Shown: piece after piece, positions 26,634 to 36,005 of the stretch
How the letters are laid out: each line of letters begins with the position of its first letter
Position numbering within the stretch: the first letter of the stretch is position 1
Source of the DNA: an uncultured Cytophagales bacterium
GTDB taxonomy: Bacteria > Bacteroidota > Bacteroidia > Cytophagales > Cyclobacteriaceae
Direction: 5' to 3'
Assembly (NCBI GenBank): GCA_913057175.1
Contig: CAJXNP010000003.1
Span: 310,001-374,000, forward strand
DNA length: 64,000 nucleotides
Position numbers and translations under genes: made by a program
The notes under the pieces: generated by a model
Seen by the model: only the letters and a program-made list of their open reading frames with translations
What the model was told of the DNA's origin: nothing
Databases searched by the model: none

Positions 26634-29309
26634 ATGGAAGTTTTCGACCTTAGAACGGAATACAAACACAACCCTATAGGTATTGGCACAACAAGCCCAA
26701 GGTTAAGCTGGAAATTAAAGTCAAAAGATAAGAATACAAAACAGGCGGCTTATCAAATTTTGGTTGCCAAACCTAATACGGAATTATCGTCTGAAGAAAA
26801 CTTTGTCTGGAATACCGGTAAAGTGGTTTCTGATCAATCCGTACATATTCCCTATGAAGGGCCAAAGCTACGGTCGGGACAAAGGTTGTACTGGAAGATC
26901 AAAGTTTGGGACAATTATGGAAATGTAGCTGAATCCGAAAAGCAGGCGTTTTGGGAAATGGGAATGCTAAATCCTGAAGAATGGGAGGCAGAATGGATTA
27001 CCTTGCCTTGGTCTGAAAACCCAAATGCATCATCTCCTTGCCCTTATTTCAGAAATGTGTTTTATGCCTATGAGCCAATTATTGAGGCTAGGATTTATGT
27101 ATCCGCCTTAGGACTCTACGAGCTGGAACTGAATGGTGAGAGAGTGGGTGATGAGTTATTTACACCCGGCTGGACAAACTATCATAAAAGGCTCCAATAC
27201 CAGGTTTATGATGTAACGAAAAATATAAAATTAGGAAAAAATGTTATTGGAGCAATCGTGGGTGATGGATGGTATAGAGGTCACTTTGGTTGGTGGGAAA
27301 ATAACCGGAATAATTATGGTGAAAGACTTGCATTATTGGTGCAATTGAAGCTGGTCTTTCGAGATGGATCGAAAATATTAATCAATTCTGACGACACATG
27401 GAAATCTAATACAGGCCCCCTCTTAAAATCTGACATATATAATGGCGAAACCTATGACGCCCGACTTGAGATGGAAGGTTGGTCAACTTCTTCATTTGAC
27501 GATTCTACCTGGGAAAATGTAAAAATATTAAACCATCCGAAAAATATCCTTGTCGAATCTGTTGGTGAAAAAGTAAAAAAGGTACTAAAAATTTCCCCAA
27601 AAAAATTGTTAACAACTCCAAAAGGGGAAAAAGTATTTGACTTAGGTCAAAACATGGTCGGATGGGTGAAATTAAAGGTTGCAGGGAAAGCAGGAGACAA
27701 GGTGACGTTGAAATTTGCTGAAGTGTTGGACAGCGATGGCAATTTCTACACCGAAAATCTGCGAAATATCGAATGTTCGGATCAATACATTTTAAAAGGA
27801 TATGGTGAAGAAACTTATGAGCCCCGTTTTACCTTCCATGGCTTTAGGTATGTCATGATACAAGGCTACCCTGCAGATTTAACACTTAATAGTATCAAAG
27901 GAGTTGTCATTCACTCTGATATGGATCAAACCGGTAAGTTCCGCTGCTCTGACCCATTAATTAACCAACTGCAAAACAACATAGAATGGGGACAACGGGG
28001 AAACTTTCTGGATGTTCCAACGGACTGTCCGCAAAGAGATGAGCGTTTGGGTTGGACTGGAGATGCACAGGTTTTTGCACCAACAGCCAGCTTCAACTTC
28101 CAAACTGCATCTTTTTTTACCAAATGGTTAAAGGATCTGGAATCTGAGCAACGGGAAGATGGAAGTGTACCCTGGGTAGTTCCCAATATTATTAAAGATG
28201 GTGGTGGTACCGGTTGGTCCGATGGCTTTGGGGCAACAGGATGGGCCGATGCAGCAGTAATCATACCCTGGACGTTATATCAATATTATGGAGATGTCAG
28301 GATACTAGAAGAACAGTTTTCCTCTATGAAAAACTGGATTGAGTATATGCGCAAACATGCCGGCGACTCTTTCATATTTAAATATGGGTTTCATTTTGGA
28401 GACTGGCTTTCGTTCGCGGAGTACCATTCTTACCAATATAATGCCCCTGACTATGGTTATGCCGGCGCTCATACAGATAAGGAGTTGATTGCAACAGCAT
28501 ACTTTTATTATTCCACATCTATTGTTGAAAAATCAGCCAGACTGATAGGTGAAAACAATTATGCCGATGAACTCCGATTGCTACTTCCCAAAATCAAACA
28601 AGCCTGGAACAATGAATTTACTACCAATGCCGGAAGGCTTGTTTCCAATACTCAAACAGCCTTTTCCCTGGCATTGGTATTCGATCTTATTTCCGACGAA
28701 AAAAAAGAAATGATAAGTAGGAGACTTGCTAAAGATGTCGAGCATTTTAGCCATTTAACGACAGGTTTTCTAGGTACGCCAATACTGAATTTTGCTTTGT
28801 CAGACTCCGGGAGAACGGATCTGGCATATTTACTATTAAAAAACAAAAGGTACCCCTCCTGGCTTTACCCAATTACAAAGGGCGCAACAACGATATGGGA
28901 GCGATGGGATGGAATTAAACCTGATGATACCTTTCAGACTGTTGGAATGAACAGTTTCAATCACTATGCTTACGGGGCAATAGGTGATTGGTTATACTCC
29001 AGATTAGCTGGTATCAGGATTGATCCAGATCAACCCGGATATAAAAATATCATCTTCACCCCATCTATCTCAACAGGCATTGAATTTGTAGAAGCAGGTA
29101 TCGAAACAATGTACGGCCTGGTATTTGTAAAATGGAAGATTGATGGAAACAAGGTGCGATACGACATTCAAATCCCACCGAATTGCACCGCTAAAATTAT
29201 GCTACCATCCTCGGAAAAGATTGAAATGGATGGCATGAAAATCAATAAAAGTGATCTCACCAATTTAGAAATTGGTTCTGGTAATCATACTGTTACCTGG
29301 CTAATATGA
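26634..29309 (+). CDS. GH78 alpha-L-rhamnosidase, cytoplasmic
   Basis: With the ATG at 26634, which follows an AAAGGA purine stretch and leaves 10 bases after the small membrane gene, the enzyme has 891 residues. An earlier in-frame ATG at 26601 would overlap that gene. Domains follow the GH78 order: N-terminal Bac_rhamnosid_N and beta-sandwich domains (LRTEYKHNPIGI, PRLSWKLKS, YVSALGLYELELNGERVGDELFTPGWTNY), then the alpha/alpha barrel with DVPTDCPQRDERLGWTGDAQVF (about 460-481), which holds the general acid region, and the C-terminal sandwich. No signal peptide is present, so it acts inside the cell on imported rhamnosylated oligomers, consistent with the permease ahead of it. Rhamnogalacturonan fragments are the likely substrate. 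Confidence 0.95.
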   Translation: MEVFDLRTEYKHNPIGIGTTSPRLSWKLKSKDKNTKQAAYQILVAKPNTELSSEENFVWNTGKVVSDQSVHIPYEGPKLRSGQRLYWKIKVWDNYGNVAESEKQAFWEMGMLNPEEWEAEWITLPWSENPNASSPCPYFRNVFYAYEPIIEARIYVSALGLYELELNGERVGDELFTPGWTNYHKRLQYQVYDVTKNIKLGKNVIGAIVGDGWYRGHFGWWENNRNNYGERLALLVQLKLVFRDGSKILINSDDTWKSNTGPLLKSDIYNGETYDARLEMEGWSTSSFDDSTWENVKILNHPKNILVESVGEKVKKVLKISPKKLLTTPKGEKVFDLGQNMVGWVKLKVAGKAGDKVTLKFAEVLDSDGNFYTENLRNIECSDQYILKGYGEETYEPRFTFHGFRYVMIQGYPADLTLNSIKGVVIHSDMDQTGKFRCSDPLINQLQNNIEWGQRGNFLDVPTDCPQRDERLGWTGDAQVFAPTASFNFQTASFFTKWLKDLESEQREDGSVPWVVPNIIKDGGGTGWSDGFGATGWADAAVIIPWTLYQYYGDVRILEEQFSSMKNWIEYMRKHAGDSFIFKYGFHFGDWLSFAEYHSYQYNAPDYGYAGAHTDKELIATAYFYYSTSIVEKSARLIGENNYADELRLLLPKIKQAWNNEFTTNAGRLVSNTQTAFSLALVFDLISDEKKEMISRRLAKDVEHFSHLTTGFLGTPILNFALSDSGRTDLAYLLLKNKRYPSWLYPITKGATTIWERWDGIKPDDTFQTVGMNSFNHYAYGAIGDWLYSRLAGIRIDPDQPGYKNIIFTPSISTGIEFVEAGIETMYGLVFVKWKIDGNKVRYDIQIPPNCTAKIMLPSSEKIEMDGMKINKSDLTNLEIGSGNHTVTWLI

Positions 29310-29333
29310 ATAGATATAAAGCATTTGATTTTC

Positions 29334-30119
29334 TCAGGATTTTTGAGCTATAATCAGCTCAATTTCATGTTCTTCAAAAACCTTCTTATCTTTTTTATTG
29401 ATGTCCTCATCTGTAATAATATAATCTATTAGTGAGAGCGCTCCAAGGCTGGCCAATGCGCTTTTACCGATTTTGGATGAGTCAGCTACCAGGTAGGTGA
29501 TATCAGCCGCATCAATCATTGCTTTCTTTACTACAATATCGCTCAAGCTGGGATAAGTCAAACCTGATTTCAATGAAATGCCAGCTGTTGCTAAAAATAA
29601 TTTCTGCACTGCCAGCCCTTTAAAAAAGTCGGCCGCTTTCTGGCCGGTCAAGGATAAGGTAGGTGGTTTAAACTCCCCACCAGTTACAATGATTTCAATA
29701 CCCGGCTCAGCACCGAGCATTAACGCAATATTTACTGCATTAGTAATAACAGTAAGATTTTTCATGCCTCTGAGCTTTTTGGCAATTTCTGTAGTCGTTG
29801 AACCCGAATCAAGAATAATTGTATCTCCACTTTCTATAAATTCCAGGCACTTTTCTGCAATCAATTCCTTCTTGTCCATGTTTTCCTGGTGCTCAAGAGA
29901 AAAACTTCTTACCTGATCTTCCACATTTTTTAGGAAAGCACCACCATGTTCCCTGACTATTAAATCATCATGCTCTAACTTTTCCAAATCTTGTCGAATG
30001 GTCACCTCGGTAACCTTAAATAGTTTGGCAAGGTTTGTAACCTTAGCAGAGCCGTCTTCGCGTAGGAGGTCCATTATTTTCTCACGCCGCTGGTTGGCCA
30101 TTAAATTTTCTAGTTTCAT
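29334..30119 (-). CDS. DeoR/GlpR-family transcriptional regulator
   Basis: The 261-residue protein has an N-terminal DeoR helix-turn-helix (about 10-65: NQRREKIMDLLREDGSAKV, VTEVTIRQDLEKLEHDDLIVREHGGAF) and a DeoRC sugar-phosphate-binding domain (about 80-235: GDTIILDSGSTTTEIAKKL, TVITNAVNIALML, VTGGEF, LFLATAGIS). DeoR proteins repress catabolic genes and are released by phosphorylated sugar intermediates. It converges on the GH78 gene with only 24 bases between stops. An ATG at Met7 (MANQRREK) is a possible alternative start. Targets are probably the permease-rhamnosidase operon and itself; a palindrome just upstream may be its own operator. The inducer could be a rhamnose- or uronate-derived phosphate, which is inference. 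Confidence 0.93.
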   Translation of the reverse strand: MKLENLMANQRREKIMDLLREDGSAKVTNLAKLFKVTEVTIRQDLEKLEHDDLIVREHGGAFLKNVEDQVRSFSLEHQENMDKKELIAEKCLEFIESGDTIILDSGSTTTEIAKKLRGMKNLTVITNAVNIALMLGAEPGIEIIVTGGEFKPPTLSLTGQKAADFFKGLAVQKLFLATAGISLKSGLTYPSLSDIVVKKAMIDAADITYLVADSSKIGKSALASLGALSLIDYIITDEDINKKDKKVFEEHEIELIIAQKS

Positions 30120-30133
30120 TTACTGAAGTTTAT

Positions 30134-30157
30134 AAACAAAAGTGATTCACTTTGTTT
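30134..30157. promoter_or_regulatory. Palindromic candidate operator upstream of the DeoR-type gene
   Basis: AGTGATTCACT at 30140-30150 is a perfect 11-base odd palindrome, framed by AAACAA (30134-30139) and TTGTTT (30152-30157). It ends about 15 bases from the regulator's start codon, where binding would block transcription. Autoregulation is inferred from the position. Confidence 0.5.
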
Positions 30158-30554
30158 GGAACAAATCGGCTATTCATTCTATTCTCATTCACTTTAATCC
30201 TCTTGTTGGTAAAAAATTGTGATTTTCATTCAATTAGAGTTTGAACCTTATGATTAATATTCATGATTCAAGGTTTAAAATTCAAAATAAACATTTCAAT
30301 TTACAATTGTTATGATAATTTTCATTTGATTTCTTTTTTGGACTATTTGGCTTTAGATTATTACAGTAAATTATAATGAAAAGCTATTGCTTAATTCTCA
30401 TATTGAGTAACAATCGTAAGATTATGGGGTCTAATAATTCCACCTTTATTGTTAACATCGTTCTTATACTGACCTTCATTATATCTATTATTGAACAGTT
30501 TTAATTTATTTCAAAATGGACTTACAATTTTTTCTAATGTATTTTAAAAGTGAA
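30158..30554. other. Gene-free spacer and probable left junction of the mobile element
   Basis: This very AT-rich stretch contains only a loose inverted repeat (AACCTT near 30245, AAGGTT near 30272). The left end of the integrative element should be here, but no copy of tRNA or right-flank sequence that could mark an attachment site was found by eye. Confidence 0.35.
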
Positions 30555-31250
30555 TTAATTCCGTTTATCTTTTGACTTGCGATCAAATGATATTACGTTA
30601 AGTATCTCTCTCAACCTACTTCTTACCCTATTTCCATAAGAACCCTCCAATTCACAGGCAGAAAGATTTGTCGTAACATGGGTTATAATTTTCGAATGGA
30701 TAAACATGTCATATCGGGATAAAAGGATCTCCGCCATGACATTGGTATCATTGCCATAATATTTAATATTTGATTCTACTCCCAGATCATCGAAACAATA
30801 GGTCTTGGGAAGAAGATCTCCTTCTTTTCTGTGGAAAGCTCCTTTGGAGTATTTGTTGATTATAGGATATCCTTCCTGGATGAATTCATAGGTGATGTCT
30901 CTACTGGATTTGATAAAAAACTGTTCTTTTGGTGAAAGAAAAAATCGCATGATGGTCATGAGACTTGTTTTGCCACAACCAACCGGGCCGGTGAGGAGAA
31001 TGCCTTTATGGAGATCGATGTTTTGAGATTCGGCATTTTTGGTGTCCTGGTAGAAATAGGTTAGGAGTTTGAAAATAATCGGTAGATCCTCCTGGTATAA
31101 TTTGAATTTTGGATTGAAATTGGCTTTACCTGCTTTTTCAATAAATTCGAGGCATTGGTCGAAGGCGAATTTAGAGGTGTTGAAGGAGGTGTCGAGCTTA
31201 ATTTTTGATTCTTCTAAAAAAGATTTAGGGGGAATATTATCGTTGGACAT
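30555..31250 (-). CDS. DnaC/IstB-type P-loop ATPase of the mobile element
   Basis: The 231-residue protein has a Walker A motif GPVGCGKTS at 88-96 and a Walker B-like segment TYCFDDLGVE, followed by sensor-like residues (THVTTNLSACELEGSYGNRVRSRLREI) that match the AAA+ DnaC / IstB group. Such proteins load helicases or support transposition and element replication. It is the last gene of the cassette, separated from the winged-helix gene by repeat copy A. The protein ends in a basic tail, FDRKSKDKRN. The role in element replication is inferred from the neighbours. Confidence 0.75.
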   Translation of the reverse strand: MSNDNIPPKSFLEESKIKLDTSFNTSKFAFDQCLEFIEKAGKANFNPKFKLYQEDLPIIFKLLTYFYQDTKNAESQNIDLHKGILLTGPVGCGKTSLMTIMRFFLSPKEQFFIKSSRDITYEFIQEGYPIINKYSKGAFHRKEGDLLPKTYCFDDLGVESNIKYYGNDTNVMAEILLSRYDMFIHSKIITHVTTNLSACELEGSYGNRVRSRLREILNVISFDRKSKDKRN

Positions 31251-31287
31251 TAGAATTTCATTTAAAAAGTGTGATTAGTATTTCTAT

Positions 31288-31482
31288 TGTCCTATGGCCG
31301 GACAGGCCCTTACTTTGCTCATACGCTCTTTCATGCCACACAACCTTTCGCGAATCTGTGATTTCTGTCTTGATACAGAAAGTAAGCAAAAGAATCCCCG
31401 CCTGCCGGACGGGCAAGAAGGAAAAACAATACTTCCTCGCACAGGCCCACCTGAAGCCCGCTGTTTTTCCAGGCCATCGCTC
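31288..31482. repeat. Structured repeat copy A (98-base constant head plus variable stem)
   Basis: Bases 31288-31385 are identical to 32733-32830 of copy B. The head contains two hairpins: TGTCC/GGACA (31288-31292 with 31300-31304) and TTTCTGT/ACAGAAA (31362-31368 with 31375-31381). The tail forms a 9-pair stem, GGAAAAACA (31420-31428) with TGTTTTTCC (31462-31470), followed by GGCCATCGCTC. Between head and tail stem this copy has an extra GC-rich partial palindrome (about 31397-31415) that copy B lacks. Short overlapping open frames in all directions are not genes. The copy lies 23 bases beyond the stop of the winged-helix gene. Confidence 0.9.
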
Positions 31483-31504
31483 ATGGTGTGCTTCGCACGG
31501 TTTT

Positions 31505-32239
31505 TTATAGTGGTTCATCATAGTTTTTGTTGTTATTAATGTGGAGGTGGTTGGGTTCAGCTGGTTGATGGTTCTTTGGATTAGAATATTTTCCGGAATT
31601 GAGGATCCAGTTAGTAGCAGCTGCTTGCCAGTCTTCCATTTGTTTGTTATTGCCTACTTTCCATCCGACTGATTTGAAGTAGTTGAAAAATTTCCGCGCC
31701 TCGAGCTCCGCATTTTTTTCTGTCTTCAATATATCTTTTAAAAGAGGGAACTGCGATTGAAAAAATAGTAACACTTCCTGTTCATTGGGAGGAAGGAAAT
31801 CACTTCCTTCTTTTTTTGAATTGACCTTTATCACATCTGATAAAGGTGTTCGTTCGCCTTTGCTTTTATTATTGTTTATATAGTTTATATTGTTTAATGA
31901 AGGTCTCACTGGCTTTATCAGCAGCTGTCCACCAGCTTTATCACTACCTTTATCAAATCTGTACAGGTAAACCTTGCTTCCTACCTGTGGATTATAAGAA
32001 GGATCGTACCGAATATAGCCCCATGAATGAAGTTCTTTCATGCACCTGGTGTAGGTGTTTACTGATCCGATTTTTGACATTATCATGATCTCAGATCTGG
32101 AAATTGAAATTGGATTTCGGAAGTGATTCATGTTCCAGGAATTAAAGAGGGCGAAGTAAAGGCTTACATGGTAAGGTGTAAGCCTTTCATCTTTCATGAC
32201 AAAATCCATAAATTGTAAAAAGTGCTTGATAAAATTCAT
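31505..32239 (-). CDS. Replication-type winged-helix protein of the mobile element
   Basis: The 244-residue protein opens with a winged-helix-like segment (about 10-85: FVMKDERLTPYHVSLYFALF, ISISRSEIMIMSKIGSVNTYTRCMKELHSWGYIRY) of the kind found in phage and plasmid replication organisers and DnaD-like proteins. A polar linker rich in Asn and Lys follows, and a helical C-terminal part (about 150-220, ARKFFNYFKSVGWKVGNNKQMEDWQAAATNWI) recalls DnaD/DnaB2 C-terminal domains. The pairing with a DnaC-type ATPase next door supports a replication role for the element. It follows the excisionase-like gene by 5 bases. The precise family is uncertain. Confidence 0.65.
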   Translation of the reverse strand: MNFIKHFLQFMDFVMKDERLTPYHVSLYFALFNSWNMNHFRNPISISRSEIMIMSKIGSVNTYTRCMKELHSWGYIRYDPSYNPQVGSKVYLYRFDKGSDKAGGQLLIKPVRPSLNNINYINNNKSKGERTPLSDVIKVNSKKEGSDFLPPNEQEVLLFFQSQFPLLKDILKTEKNAELEARKFFNYFKSVGWKVGNNKQMEDWQAAATNWILNSGKYSNPKNHQPAEPNHLHINNNKNYDEPL

Positions 32240-32244
32240 TCACG

Positions 32245-32532
32245 CTATCCTGGAAAAATATGATTTGATATTCTATTTTCAGAAAGCATTTTTTGAACAT
32301 CTTCATATTTGTAGAAGATCACTCCACCAATTTTAGAAAAAGGTAGGGTTCCGTTTACCCTGAGGTTTTGAAGTGTTCCAGGAGAGATTCCTAAAAACTC
32401 GCGGACCTCATAAGATTTTAACCATTTCTTCGTGACTTGTCCGGAACTTTCCTTTAGAAGTGTTTTTAATTCTTCTAATAATTCGATCTTGAAATCTCGC
32501 AGATCGTCAGTTGTAATAATTGTAGCTGGCAT
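32245..32532 (-). CDS. Excisionase-like helix-turn-helix protein
   Basis: With the ATG at 32532 the protein has 95 residues (MPATIITTDDLRDFK...); an ATG at 32556 would add 8. It has an N-terminal helical segment and a MerR/excisionase-type HTH (LKSYEVREFLGISPGTLQNLRVNGTLPFSKIGGVIFYKYEDVQ in overlapping parts, about 40-85), the HTH_17 pattern common in Bacteroidota conjugative and mobilisable elements. It probably helps excision or controls the downstream replication genes, which start 5 bases after its stop. It is separated from the RteC gene by repeat copy B. Confidence 0.85.
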   Translation of the reverse strand: MPATIITTDDLRDFKIELLEELKTLLKESSGQVTKKWLKSYEVREFLGISPGTLQNLRVNGTLPFSKIGGVIFYKYEDVQKMLSENRISNHIFPG

Positions 32533-32556
32533 AATATTTAGTTTAATTTGATTCAA

Positions 32557-32732
32557 GACAAATCACGACAGGAAATGAATATCAAAACAGTTGCAGGGGT
32601 TGCAGGACCCTTTGTAAGAGGTTGGTTTTGAGTAGGATATGAGTTTAAAAAATATTAATTCATTGAGCGGTAGAAGACCGAATCAGACATGTCAATTATA
32701 TTTGCTTGCAATAGTTACGTTCCTTCATTTAA
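32557..32732. other. Spacer upstream of the excisionase-like gene
   Basis: This is the leader between repeat copy B and the HTH gene. It should contain that operon's promoter. No clear consensus box or open frame was seen. Confidence 0.35.
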
Positions 32733-32905
32733 TGTCCTATGGCCGGACAGGCCCTTACTTTGCTCATACGCTCTTTCATGCCACACAACCTTTCGCGAAT
32801 CTGTGATTTCTGTCTTGATACAGAAAGTAAACAAAGAAATCAAGACAAAACGATGCTTCTACACACATGCCTACACACCCCCGCCGTTTTGTCTGGCCAG
32901 CGCTC
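32733..32905. repeat. Structured repeat copy B (98-base constant head plus variable stem)
   Basis: The first 98 bases equal those of copy A at 31288-31385. The tail stem is GACAAAACG (32844-32852) with CGTTTTGTC (32885-32893), 9 perfect pairs, followed by TGGCCAGCGCTC. Against copy A, pairs 2, 3 and 9 are changed on both sides, so pairing is kept while sequence is not. Copy B lacks the GC-rich insert found in A. It ends 7 bases beyond the stop of the RteC gene, a placement parallel to copy A. Confidence 0.9.
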
Positions 32906-32911
32906 TTAAAA

Positions 32912-34114
32912 TTAATTTTTACGGACTTGGTTTAGTATATTGATGATGAGATCTTTTATAGTTTCTCTGGTTGAATCTTCAATATTATAAAATTTGGATC
33001 TCATGCTTTCAACAGAAATGTTTTCAGCTCTTTTTGTTTGGGTTCCCATTGAGATGAATTTTAAGACCTCCCTATGATTTTTATTGATAATAATTCCTGT
33101 GTCAAAAAAAAGCCTTACAAGGTATGCTAATTGCGATACAGACAAACTGGTTAATACTTTAAAATCATTGTGAATCGGCTCTTTCCTTTTAAAAGGGATG
33201 TTTAGAGAAAGTTGATTTCTTTTCTCAAGAAAGTACATTTCTTCATCCAGCCATTCCAATAAAGCATCCTTTATCGATATACATTTCGGTTTATAAGCGA
33301 ATCCAGGTTTCACATGGTCCTGGTTCAGTGTTTTAATGAAATAGGCAAGTTTCTCTATCTGGCCACAAAGTGAATCCTCCTTTAGATATAGATCTTTGAA
33401 GTTAGATGTGCAGTAATTAAAAAATTTGAAGGAGTTGTAATTAAGATATATCATTCCACAACACACTTTCTCATCAATACTTTTATCCGTTGAATTGTTG
33501 AATGAAATATCTACTAATTCCTTCAACATCGTTTTCAAATAGATTAATTTTCTGAATGAGATGCATTCTTCATTCCGTGAAATAATGAGCTTTTCAAAAG
33601 GATGAAATACTACTTTATTCAATTCCTGAGAGATCCCTTGTTCCTTTAACTCCCTTTTTAATATTGGTAACTCTTCTTTGAAATCACGTACAGCTATGAT
33701 CATGTAACTGCGGGGAATTTTAGCTTTCAGGCTGAAATATTGTGAGAAGTGCTTTTCGATATAGGTGAGTAAATCTTCTAATTGGACATAAATGATCTTA
33801 TAGAGATTTACCGGGTTAATTTCATCACTTGTAGAATAAATTTTCAAAGCTTCTTCCGGAGAAATGTATTGTAGAAGATGATCTGTTAAGCGAATTAATT
33901 CCTGTTGGTGACATTGAATATATTGCTCAAACTGTTTTTCCCTTTTAATGCTGAATAATTTATTTTTGAATAACAGTTTTATTCTATTTACTTCTGATTG
34001 AACCTTCGTGCACCATTTTTCAAATTGTTGGTTTGATAGGGGGTGATTTTTAAGGTTGTCAGGAGCTAAATCGTGATGGATTAATGCATCCAGTACTTCT
34101 AATTCGTATTTCAA
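32912..34114 (-). CDS. RteC-like regulatory protein
   Basis: The 400-residue protein matches the RteC layout of Bacteroides conjugative transposons: a long helical N-terminus (KWCTKVQSEVNRIKLLFKNK), the central YFSLKAKIPRSYMIIAVRDFKEEL segment, and a C-terminal winged-helix-like part ending the family motif (SVSQLAYLVRLFFDTGIIINKNHREVLKFIS, then QTKRAENISVESMRSKFYN; given here in parts). In CTnDOT RteC activates excision genes in response to a two-component system. No RteA/RteB partner is visible here. It precedes the excisionase-like gene, so control of excision is the likely role. It is separated from the integrase gene by about 200 bases. Confidence 0.85.
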   Translation of the reverse strand: MKYELEVLDALIHHDLAPDNLKNHPLSNQQFEKWCTKVQSEVNRIKLLFKNKLFSIKREKQFEQYIQCHQQELIRLTDHLLQYISPEEALKIYSTSDEINPVNLYKIIYVQLEDLLTYIEKHFSQYFSLKAKIPRSYMIIAVRDFKEELPILKRELKEQGISQELNKVVFHPFEKLIISRNEECISFRKLIYLKTMLKELVDISFNNSTDKSIDEKVCCGMIYLNYNSFKFFNYCTSNFKDLYLKEDSLCGQIEKLAYFIKTLNQDHVKPGFAYKPKCISIKDALLEWLDEEMYFLEKRNQLSLNIPFKRKEPIHNDFKVLTSLSVSQLAYLVRLFFDTGIIINKNHREVLKFISMGTQTKRAENISVESMRSKFYNIEDSTRETIKDLIINILNQVRKN

Positions 34115-34312
34115 TTACTAGGGTTTTGGTCTAAAAAGTGAGCTTAATTAATGGTTAAAAAATGATATAACCCCCTCCAATTCTATTCCTCAAACTCCGC
34201 AAATGATAAGCAAATCGTTGAAAATCCAACCAAATATAATTGAAATAGTAAAATGTACAAATTCAAACAGTGAAAAATATGTTAATATTATTGAAATGTT
34301 ATTTCTAATTTT

Positions 34313-35575
34313 TTAAACAACCTTCTTAGCCTGGTTATTGCCTCTATTTGATGAAAGCTTTTGCTCCAATTTACCCATGTCCTCACTTAGTTTTGTTTCG
34401 ACTACTTTGGCATAGATCTGCGTGGTTGTGATCTTGGTATGACCGAGCATTTTACTAACTGATTCAATGGGGACACCATTGGCCAGGGTAACGGTGGTTG
34501 CGAAAGTATGCCGGGCCAGGTGGAAAGTTAAATTTTTCTCGATACCGCATAAATCGCCGATTTCTTTTAGGTAAGAATTTAATTTTTGGTTGGAGATACC
34601 AGGGAATAGACTTCCCTCATTTAAAACCTTTGGATGTGTCTGATATTTTTCAATTAATATCTTTGCTTTTGGAAGTAATGGAACCTTCACTAACACCGAA
34701 GATTTTTGTCTGCTTGTTGCTAACCATTTTTTACCATCCATTCCAACAACAATATTCTCCGGCTTGAGTTTAATGACATCGATATAAGCTAATCCGGTAT
34801 AGCAGCTGAAAATAAACAGATCCTTCACTTGTTGTAATCGAGGAATTTTGAATTCCTTTTCTTCTAATTTACCTAACTCAATATCTGACAGATATCCCCT
34901 ATCCACTTTATCATATGAAGGTTTGAATTTTGCAAAAGGATCATGAGCCATCCATTCCAATTTGATCGCCAGATTAAGCATCTTTCTAAATCGCTCCATG
35001 TGTTTCATGATTCCATTATTTCCTAGAGGCTTCTGGTGATCAACAGGCTCCCATTTTCTTAGGAAATATTCAAAGTCTGTAATGAATTGATAATTAATCT
35101 GAGATAAGTATATATCAGATGTTTTGAATCGTTTATTTAGAAATCGATTGAGGTATTTCTGTGTAGTAAAATAATTTTTCAGTGTGCCCCAGGCAAGTTT
35201 GTCCTTTAAACTTGTGTTATGGTATTCAATGATCTTATTCAGAGTAAATTCATGCTCATCAATTCCCAGGAATTTATTTTTAAGCGCATCTGCAGAAACA
35301 AACTTCCTCTGCAGCGTCATGTCCTGGTAGTAATCAAAAAGTGAAAGTTTTATTCTGGTCAGATATTTATTCAATGATTGAATTTCGGCACGACTACCTT
35401 TTGCCTGATTTTTTGCACTATCCCAATCTTTGACATCAATGTTTCTTTTAGTTGAAATATTAACTCTTTTACCATTGACATTTAACCTGGCATAAATTGG
35501 AGCAATTCCATTTTTAACTTTCTGTTTTTTAAGATAAAATTTGACTGAAAAAGTGCTACTGTTGGTTCTCATCAT
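34313..35575 (-). CDS. Tyrosine site-specific integrase lacking catalytic Arg I
   Basis: The 420-residue protein has an N-terminal arm-binding domain (SVKFYLKKQKVKNGIAPIYARLNVNGKR), a SAM-like core-binding domain and a C-terminal catalytic domain. The HxxR box reads HLARHTF (about residue 354-360), the LGH motif LGHTKITTTQIYAKV ends with the nucleophile Tyr (about 387-388). The first catalytic Arg, normally in TGLR, is replaced by Ala: CYTGLAYIDVIKL (about 256-268). IntDOT-type integrases of Bacteroides also lack this Arg, so the enzyme is probably active. It is the first gene of the element and faces the tRNA cluster. A shortened N-terminus is not evident. Confidence 0.95.
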   Translation of the reverse strand: MMRTNSSTFSVKFYLKKQKVKNGIAPIYARLNVNGKRVNISTKRNIDVKDWDSAKNQAKGSRAEIQSLNKYLTRIKLSLFDYYQDMTLQRKFVSADALKNKFLGIDEHEFTLNKIIEYHNTSLKDKLAWGTLKNYFTTQKYLNRFLNKRFKTSDIYLSQINYQFITDFEYFLRKWEPVDHQKPLGNNGIMKHMERFRKMLNLAIKLEWMAHDPFAKFKPSYDKVDRGYLSDIELGKLEEKEFKIPRLQQVKDLFIFSCYTGLAYIDVIKLKPENIVVGMDGKKWLATSRQKSSVLVKVPLLPKAKILIEKYQTHPKVLNEGSLFPGISNQKLNSYLKEIGDLCGIEKNLTFHLARHTFATTVTLANGVPIESVSKMLGHTKITTTQIYAKVVETKLSEDMGKLEQKLSSNRGNNQAKKVV

Positions 35576-35801
35576 AATTCAATTTTAGTGTGAATGAATT
35601 GGTTTGAACCTCATAGGTCACCAAACAAACCCAATTAAGAGACCAAATTGAATCAAAATGACTCAATTTTTATACTTGTATATAATTGATAATCAATGAA
35701 TTACAAGCGATTTGGTTACCCAAATATAAAATTTAAAAGAGGTAACCAAATAGGTCACATTTTTTATGAAAAAAAATGGTGTGAATTGATATGATAAAAA
35801 C

Positions 35802-35837
35802 AAAAAAGCCCCTAAATCATAAGATTTAGGGGCTTTT
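35802..35837. terminator. Rho-independent terminator after the tRNA cluster
   Basis: GCCCCTAAATC (35808-35818) pairs perfectly with GATTTAGGGGC (35823-35833) around the loop ATAA, with an A-run on one side and TTTT on the other. It ends the leftward tRNA transcript 24 bases after tRNA-Pro. Confidence 0.92.
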
Positions 35838-35860
35838 AATACCGACTATTGTCCAATGAG

Positions 35861-35935
35861 TCGGGGTGGCAGGATTCGAACCTGCGACCCCCTGGTCCCA
35901 AACCAGGTGCGCTAACCGGACTGCGCTACACCCCG
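35861..35935 (-). tRNA. tRNA-Pro (anticodon TGG)
   Basis: The 75-base gene folds into a standard cloverleaf. The acceptor arm is CGGGGTG/CACCCCG with discriminator A. The anticodon arm has stem CCTGG/CCAGG around the loop TTTGGGA, giving TGG. The T arm contains GGTTCGAATCC. CCA is not encoded. It is the last gene of the tRNA operon, just before the terminator. Confidence 0.97.
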
Positions 35936-36005
35936 ATGAAATTTGGTGATATTATGATTTTTAAATTTGTGATAAAACAAATCACGAAATCACTAGATAT
36001 CCTTG

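Follow-up and report, generated by a model that had tools for sequence, protein, structure and literature searches.

Two units in the window analysed here, a stretch of 64,000 nucleotides, share a common head yet end in tails of two different types. What these units (A and B) are, and at which level, DNA or RNA, their paired arms meet, is the question raised by this locus. The initial annotation had reported that 98 head bases are identical in the two units and that each tail contains a 9-pair stem, with pairs 2, 3 and 9 differing on both strands. Re-reading of the window sequence confirmed both points. Three features had been missed: a hairpin located ahead of the tail (stem 1), a downstream segment complementary to the loop of this hairpin (the loop-complement), and an insertion that splits the loop-complement in unit A.

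Two units inside a small integrative element

The heads of the two units are 97% identical when compared over 109 positions, and the units are spaced by 1445 bases. Unit A is a damaged copy, its loop-complement being interrupted by some 20 inserted bases (Table 1). In the genome of the window, blastn found A and B only, and covariance model R1 (described below) found four copies. Within this genome, the loop-complement is intact in B only; it is split in A and is absent from L202 and L203, which have another loop. Folded freely, the tails alone did not differ significantly from shuffled sequences (z −0.64 for A and −1.26 for B), so that two copies alone could not settle the question of the stems, and the evidence for the tail stems is comparative.

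The A and B modules sit inside a small integrative element. As noted previously, A ends 23 bases and B 7 bases past the stops of minus-strand ORFs, 31505-32239 and 32912-34114 respectively, within the integrase-bearing element. This element (30555-35935) adjoins a tRNA-Pro gene (35860-35935). A comparison of exact 12-base words revealed no attachment-site repeats between 29000-30560 and 35560-35960.

Table 1. Coordinates of the repeat units, their parts and the surrounding genes in the window.
Feature	Positions	Strand	Remarks
Unit A	31288..31482	+	head as in B, tail of another type; loop-complement interrupted
A 98-base head	31288..31385	+	identical in B
Match of model R1 in A	31356-31482	+	40.5 bits, E 5.6e-5
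A stem 1	31362..31381	+	TTTCTGT / loop CTTGAT / ACAGAAA
A GC-rich insertion CCCGCCTGCCGGACGGGC	31397..31414	+	separates ATC from AAG in the loop-complement; alignment gap 21 bases
A tail 5′ arm GGAAAAACA	31420..31428	+	
A tail 3′ arm TGTTTTTCC	31462..31470	+	
Unit B	32733..32905	+	intact member
Match of model R1 in B	32801-32905	+	94.6 bits, E 1.6e-16; B itself is a seed of R1
B stem 1	32807..32826	+	TTTCTGT / loop CTTGAT / ACAGAAA
B loop-complement ATCAAGA	32839..32845	+	pairs with the stem-1 loop
B tail 5′ arm GACAAAACG	32844..32852	+	
B tail 3′ arm CGTTTTGTC	32885..32893	+	
DnaC-like helicase-loader ATPase	30555..31250	-	PHROG 50, E 1.4e-12
Weakly replication-initiation-like protein	31505..32239	-	phrog_8102, E 6.8e-5; better PHROG matches have no known function
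HTH_17 excisionase-like protein	32245..32556	-	
400-aa protein beside B	32912..34114	-	reaches no family cut-off
Tyrosine integrase	34313..35575	-	Phage_int_SAM_5, E 3.3e-22

Module anatomy and paired changes in three helices

Aligned loci reveal a module ordered as stem 1, loop, spacer, loop-complementary segment and tail stem. Stem 1 has about 7-12 pairs, with a T-rich 5′ arm and an A-rich 3′ arm, and carries a loop of 6 bases. The loop CTTGAT, for example, is matched by a downstream ATCAAG, the loop-complement lying about 5-14 bases past stem 1, behind a spacer such as CAAAGAA. The pairing of loop and downstream segment can form either a pseudoknot or an alternative hairpin. The stretch enclosed by the tail stem measures about 32 nt in the two units, and roughly 20-60 nt or more in other copies. 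The 3′ arm of the tail stem ends in TGTC in B, in CGTC in many Pontibacter copies and in TTCC in A.

Two-sided changes were found in all three helices, that is stem 1, the loop contact and the tail stem. In a set of 22 sequences, selected for possessing the stems, 94.4% of 567 cells were paired, as compared to 40-51% after the partner had been slid by 1-3 columns, and 18 of 26 pairs showed two-sided change. Covariance model R1 was built from this set. It produced 43 matches in 36 chosen loci; the 41 distinct ones, in an alignment fitted to the model and leaning its way, were 94.2% paired (41-59% when slid), with two-sided change at 20 of 21 pairs. A tally of loop-complements in 34 of the 43 matches, leaving out nine that were repeats or already-shown loci, gave at least 5 nt in 21 (CTTGTC/GACAAG being one of these pairs), 4 nt in three and none in 10. 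The latter include L018, which has no stem 1, and L243, where only one side has changed.

The loop contact was also examined with a pattern search in which the loop core, the 3′ arm and the downstream segment were fixed, whereas the base ending the loop could be either C or T and the base opposite it either A or G. The 112 unique matches come from 120 fetched stretches, are mostly from Pontibacter and are not independent. Among the matches listed, the loop-end base matched the base at the start of the downstream segment in 110 of 112 (T/A 61, C/G 49, C/A 1, T/G 1), chance being about half. Of 109 actual tails, taken from other copies among the matches listed, 61% contained a stem of at least 7 exact pairs and 48% one of at least 8 pairs, versus 2.2% and 0.37% of shuffled tails; in this test the 5′ arm was held in a nearly fixed register and the later bases were shuffled. 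About 39% of the 109 listed matches had no exact 7-pair tail stem.

A looser pattern, consisting of the 3′ arm and the spacer only, was scanned against 296 genomes and matched in 24 of them (31 rows, 30 loci). Twelve of the 31 rows contained a long hairpin, followed just past the spacer by a loop-complement of 5-7 nt in seven cases, of 4 nt in three and of less in two. Five loop types in five genomes are represented among the seven (CTTGAT, GCGAT, GAGGGG, GTGAG and GCGAC). The loop-complement was reached by 0-5.2% of 500 shuffles for each 5-7 nt case, and by 7-35% for the 4 nt cases. The other 19 rows mostly look like chance matches, several of them lying inside genes.

We then considered 15 locus pairs with homologous flanks on both sides and the element present in both loci. 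Of their 195 pair cells, 23 had changed on both sides, all being Watson-Crick in both species, and 10 had changed on one side; both loci of each pair had been fetched for the pattern, with stem 1 intact, and loci recur across pairs. At orthologous sites, the stem-1 tip, the loop base and the downstream base often switch as a whole block, and L093 is a half-switched copy. Conversion or template switching would account for such block switching no less than selection would. That the fold is conserved does not imply that it is selected, since template switching and gene conversion yield the same pattern. At three further sites (L155/L121, L077/L127 and L133/L100) the element has the opposite orientation between collinear flanks, and these cases may reflect independent insertions. 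Between the two Cecembia species concerned (L133/L100), a segment of roughly 0.2 kb, larger than the element, seems inverted by eye. Neither empty sites, among the fetched loci, which were chosen for carrying the pattern, nor a transposition event were found.

Distribution, gene context and candidate enzymes

A blastn search with unit B gave a match in 13 of 98 genomes, and model R1, run at E 1e-4 and with stricter filters, gave at least 148 matches, which are spread over 28 of 59 genomes; the window's own genome is included in both counts. When the cut-off was E 1e-3 and 150 candidates were scored in each genome, R1 matched 65 times in G099, 40 times in G104 and 51 times in G396. The search of this genome and of others that had been recommended earlier thus recovered many homologues with two-sided tail-stem changes. 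Titles of the fetched stretches, at least 120 in number, read as Bacteroidota throughout among the matches listed. Pontibacter, Cecembia and Arthrospiribacter were checked as belonging to this phylum, in which we presume the other genera to fall as well. Nothing matched when unit B was compared to plasmids and phages by distant blastn.

Among the 143 copies scanned, not one falls within a predicted ORF longer than 200 aa; the L238 copy overlaps an ORF of 117 aa. The genes flanking these 143 elements are convergent in 39 cases, tandem in 48 and divergent in 7, with a contig edge in 49, the ORFs being mechanically predicted and some elements being counted twice because a few loci overlap. Copies occur singly, in tandem and as inverted pairs. 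In G104 the elements are often found in inverted pairs with their tails inside, whereas a tandem arrangement prevails among other close pairs (6 of 10 taken from the scan of 59 genomes). An alignment of 40 of the 60 copies from the Pontibacter loci L063-L182 placed the element inside a longer repeat of mosaic build, in which it is flanked on both sides by AGGTATAG / CTATACCT pieces.

The initial annotation had proposed, among other options, a REP-type (Y1) transposase as the partner of these repeats. The Y1 domain PF01797 is present in 47 of 59 genomes, namely 25 of the 28 with elements and 22 of the 31 without (Fisher p 0.11). Counts of elements and of Y1 matches are correlated across the 59 genomes (rho 0.40, p 0.002) and across 37 genomes of the same family (rho 0.34, p 0.037), neither kinship nor genome size being controlled for in either case; this weak signal is the one result favouring a Y1 link. 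It agrees with the proposal that a Y1 (RAYT/TnpA-REP) protein mobilises the repeats as REP sequences, and so does the published mention of "atypical secondary structures" next to some Bacteroidetes transposases (see below). Against this proposal, PF01797 had no match in three of eight element-bearing genomes (G098, G099 and G104), although G099 and G104, the latter a MAG, are the genomes with 65 and 40 element matches; these assemblies may be incomplete. Furthermore, no element was detected within about 1.5 kb around 26 RAYT-like loci (best E 0.11, some loci being truncated by contig ends), nor at any of the 48 Y1 loci to which they belong when these were scanned with a loop-free descriptor. 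The RAYT-like call follows a size of about 190 aa and an NHxH motif, which we take to be characteristic. Two of three RAYT-like genes inspected have their own, different palindromes at their flanks. For the examined genomes, mobilisation by a Y1 protein is thus largely refuted, and we consider it very improbable.

The loci L040:1004-2014 and L186:1834-1944, both RAYT-like, are flanked by the short palindromes GTTCGACATTTGTAATGTCGAAC and TTCGGACATCCGTGTCCGAA, which are unlike the element.

Derivation from IS91 (Y2) was rejected, since Y2_Tnp PF04986 went unmatched in 14 of the 15 genomes with elements that were scanned for it. Single-linkage clustering of the ORFs at the loci brought out no evident mobilising gene among recurrent neighbours; the largest clusters consist of the bait Y1 proteins, of two clusters joined by repeat translations and of ABC-transporter-like proteins in 13 loci. 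In L240:323-1606, two inverted elements whose tails point inwards enclose a single gene, of the Schlafen-AlbA_2 type, in a cassette-like arrangement. The idea of gene cassettes was abandoned: the element-rich contig C6 of G104 contains ordinary-looking genes and no cassette array.

Explanations weighed and relation to known repeats

We read A and B as members of a Bacteroidota-wide set of palindromic DNA repeats, interspersed and built of modules, whose behaviour resembles that of REP/BIME elements, and put the probability of this reading at about 60%. The repeats have three pairings with two-sided changes, are dispersed between genes and switch stem type in a coordinated manner at orthologous sites; model R1 and the orthologous set were both built from copies selected for pairing. 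In the mechanism that we favour, the strand would fold into a hairpin, a contact between its loop and the downstream segment, and a tail stem of variable sequence, with pairing acting on (single-stranded) DNA. Copies would be spread and homogenised via recombination, gene conversion and template switching, and the hairpins would be past or present substrates of a DNA-processing enzyme other than a local Y1/RAYT protein. No enzyme for the element was found among the neighbour genes, Y1 and Y2 proteins examined. It is possible, if doubtful, that the repeats represent a class of mobile DNA module in which the folded single strand is read via a pairing code of its own, made of the loop/downstream segment and the exchangeable tail stem, and processed by an enzyme other than the tested Y1 and Y2 proteins.

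The composition of stem 1 bears on the nature of the pairing. Among the matches listed, the 1344 stem-1 cells whose 5′ arm lies outside the pattern comprise 1240 Watson-Crick pairs, 9 G-T pairs and 95 mismatches, 50 of the latter falling at one position. When RNA pairing is selected, G-U is expected to be tolerated more than mismatches. Since G-T pairs are scarcer than mismatches in stem 1, pairing at the DNA level, or joint rewriting of the arms, is favoured. As a yardstick, 11 tRNAs present in the loci gave 224 Watson-Crick pairs, 14 G-T pairs and no mismatch, in a small sample filtered by ARAGORN itself. The base-pair counts thus point to pairing in DNA rather than in RNA.

A structured RNA (a 3′ UTR element, a terminator or a small RNA) would agree with the minus-strand tail hairpin, which is followed by a T-rich stretch and resembles an intrinsic terminator, the gene upstream of A and of B reading into it. 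It would also agree with the side of the element that faces gene 3′ ends. Outside L063-182, the neighbour end is a 3′ end on the tail side in 20 of 24 cases and on the head side in 13 of 22; in a set of 29 loci this holds for 17 of 27 on the tail side and for 9 of 23 on the head side, with 8 tail-side 3′ ends versus 0 within 100 nt. However, the Pontibacter-dominated set L063-182 has no side preference (57/91 tail versus 61/100 head), and its tandem gene contexts are divided into 23 elements of same and 21 of opposite orientation. The scarcity of G-T pairs also speaks against RNA, as does the Rfam search of 31000-33200, where nothing exceeded the threshold and one sub-threshold match (E 0.33) fell outside A and B. 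Of the possibilities raised by the initial annotation, a structured RNA is thus disfavoured and appears to us quite unlikely, while the properties of a DNA-level repeat fit; the targeting guide that it also named would be conjecture.

A different explanation requires neither a present function nor an enzyme proper to the element: template switching at quasi-palindromes, together with gene conversion, would rewrite both arms. Passages of PMC8794818 describe how template switching can create and fix hairpins, and template switching alone, without selection, could keep arms complementary. The changes observed are mostly from Watson-Crick to Watson-Crick with few G-T intermediates, and whole blocks switch type at orthologous sites, as this explanation predicts. 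But distant genomes each have a loop-complement just past the spacer, differing in sequence from one to another, and the A-rich spacer is shared between them. Loop-complement and shared spacer exceed the needs of an inverted repeat and therefore count against rewriting by mutation alone, which we judge unlikely. As to a single local duplication in the genome of the window followed by random drift, named earlier as the outcome that would undo the proposal, the distance of 1445 bases and the nearly identical heads of A and B are in its favour. As an account of the family it is refuted by the homologues in many genomes, where the same architecture is found with different stems, and by the different tail types of A and B; we regard it as scarcely credible. 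A and B themselves may share a recent head through duplication or conversion.

Bacteroidota abound in guts, soils and seas; the literature that we searched contains little on their dispersed repeats. The present family has a distinctive pairing of loop and downstream segment, runs to dozens of copies in certain genomes and is not linked with the transposase that was expected, which designates it as a target in the search for a new DNA-processing activity. It also lends itself to testing whether selection or template switching gives rise to two-sided changes, a question of general concern wherever covariation is held to prove that an RNA is structured.

An A-C mismatch within the stem (TTCA...CGAA) recurs in L202, L238, L240, L247 and L255, in several genomes, and position 10 of the stem is mismatched in 50 of 112 pattern matches, among the matches listed. 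These recurrent mismatches look as if they were read by a protein.

In the literature, searched mostly outside subscription journals, we found no recognised description of this repeat family, and literal core strings of 15-17 bases were unmatched. The repeats are REP-like in the broad sense, being dispersed, palindromic and extragenic. Like the REP, BIME and REPIN sequences associated with RAYT proteins, they are short and intergenic, occur singly or in inverted pairs and fall into several subtypes per genome. They differ by a loop complementary to a downstream segment and by a second long-range stem, by the lack of a RAYT gene near the examined loci and by their presence in genomes without a Y1 match. 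The REP foot GT[AG]G is absent in A and B; GTGA precedes stem 1 of B (32803-32806), and the head is the same in A. Closest in some respects are the CGTC REPs, which, as described in parts of PMC3733652, have no dedicated transposase and consist of a single stem of 8-9 bp with a loop of 4-5 nt and a CGTC or TGTC end. The present repeats resemble that description in being palindromic, dispersed and without dedicated transposase, and in bearing the terminal motif in part of the copies; in contrast, their tail loop is too long, their tail is preceded by another hairpin, and A ends in TTCC. TnpA-REP subclass 2.6 of Bacteroidetes is flanked by "atypical secondary structures" according to a portion of PMC6006769. 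Phylum and unusual secondary structures repeated in the genome are common to both, whereas the RAYT-like genes examined here lack the element; this comparison is one of descriptions, and the two could be identical in other genomes.

Certain likenesses extend to mobile elements. MITEs have terminal inverted repeats and target-site duplications; here, inverted ends occur in G104 only, whose inverted pairs of about 0.4-0.5 kb with GTATCCAAAA at or near the ends recall such elements. In single-stranded DNA, the ends of IS200/IS605 elements have hairpins together with short segments that are complementary, and they are cleaved at a tetranucleotide which a guide sequence reads. The present repeats resemble them in their hairpins and complementary segments, but the element has no transposase or ORF. 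On contig C6 of G104, the inverted pairs of L274-L276 measure about 0.4-0.5 kb and have GTATCCAAAA at or near both ends, and one inverted pair of this contig combines two different tail types.
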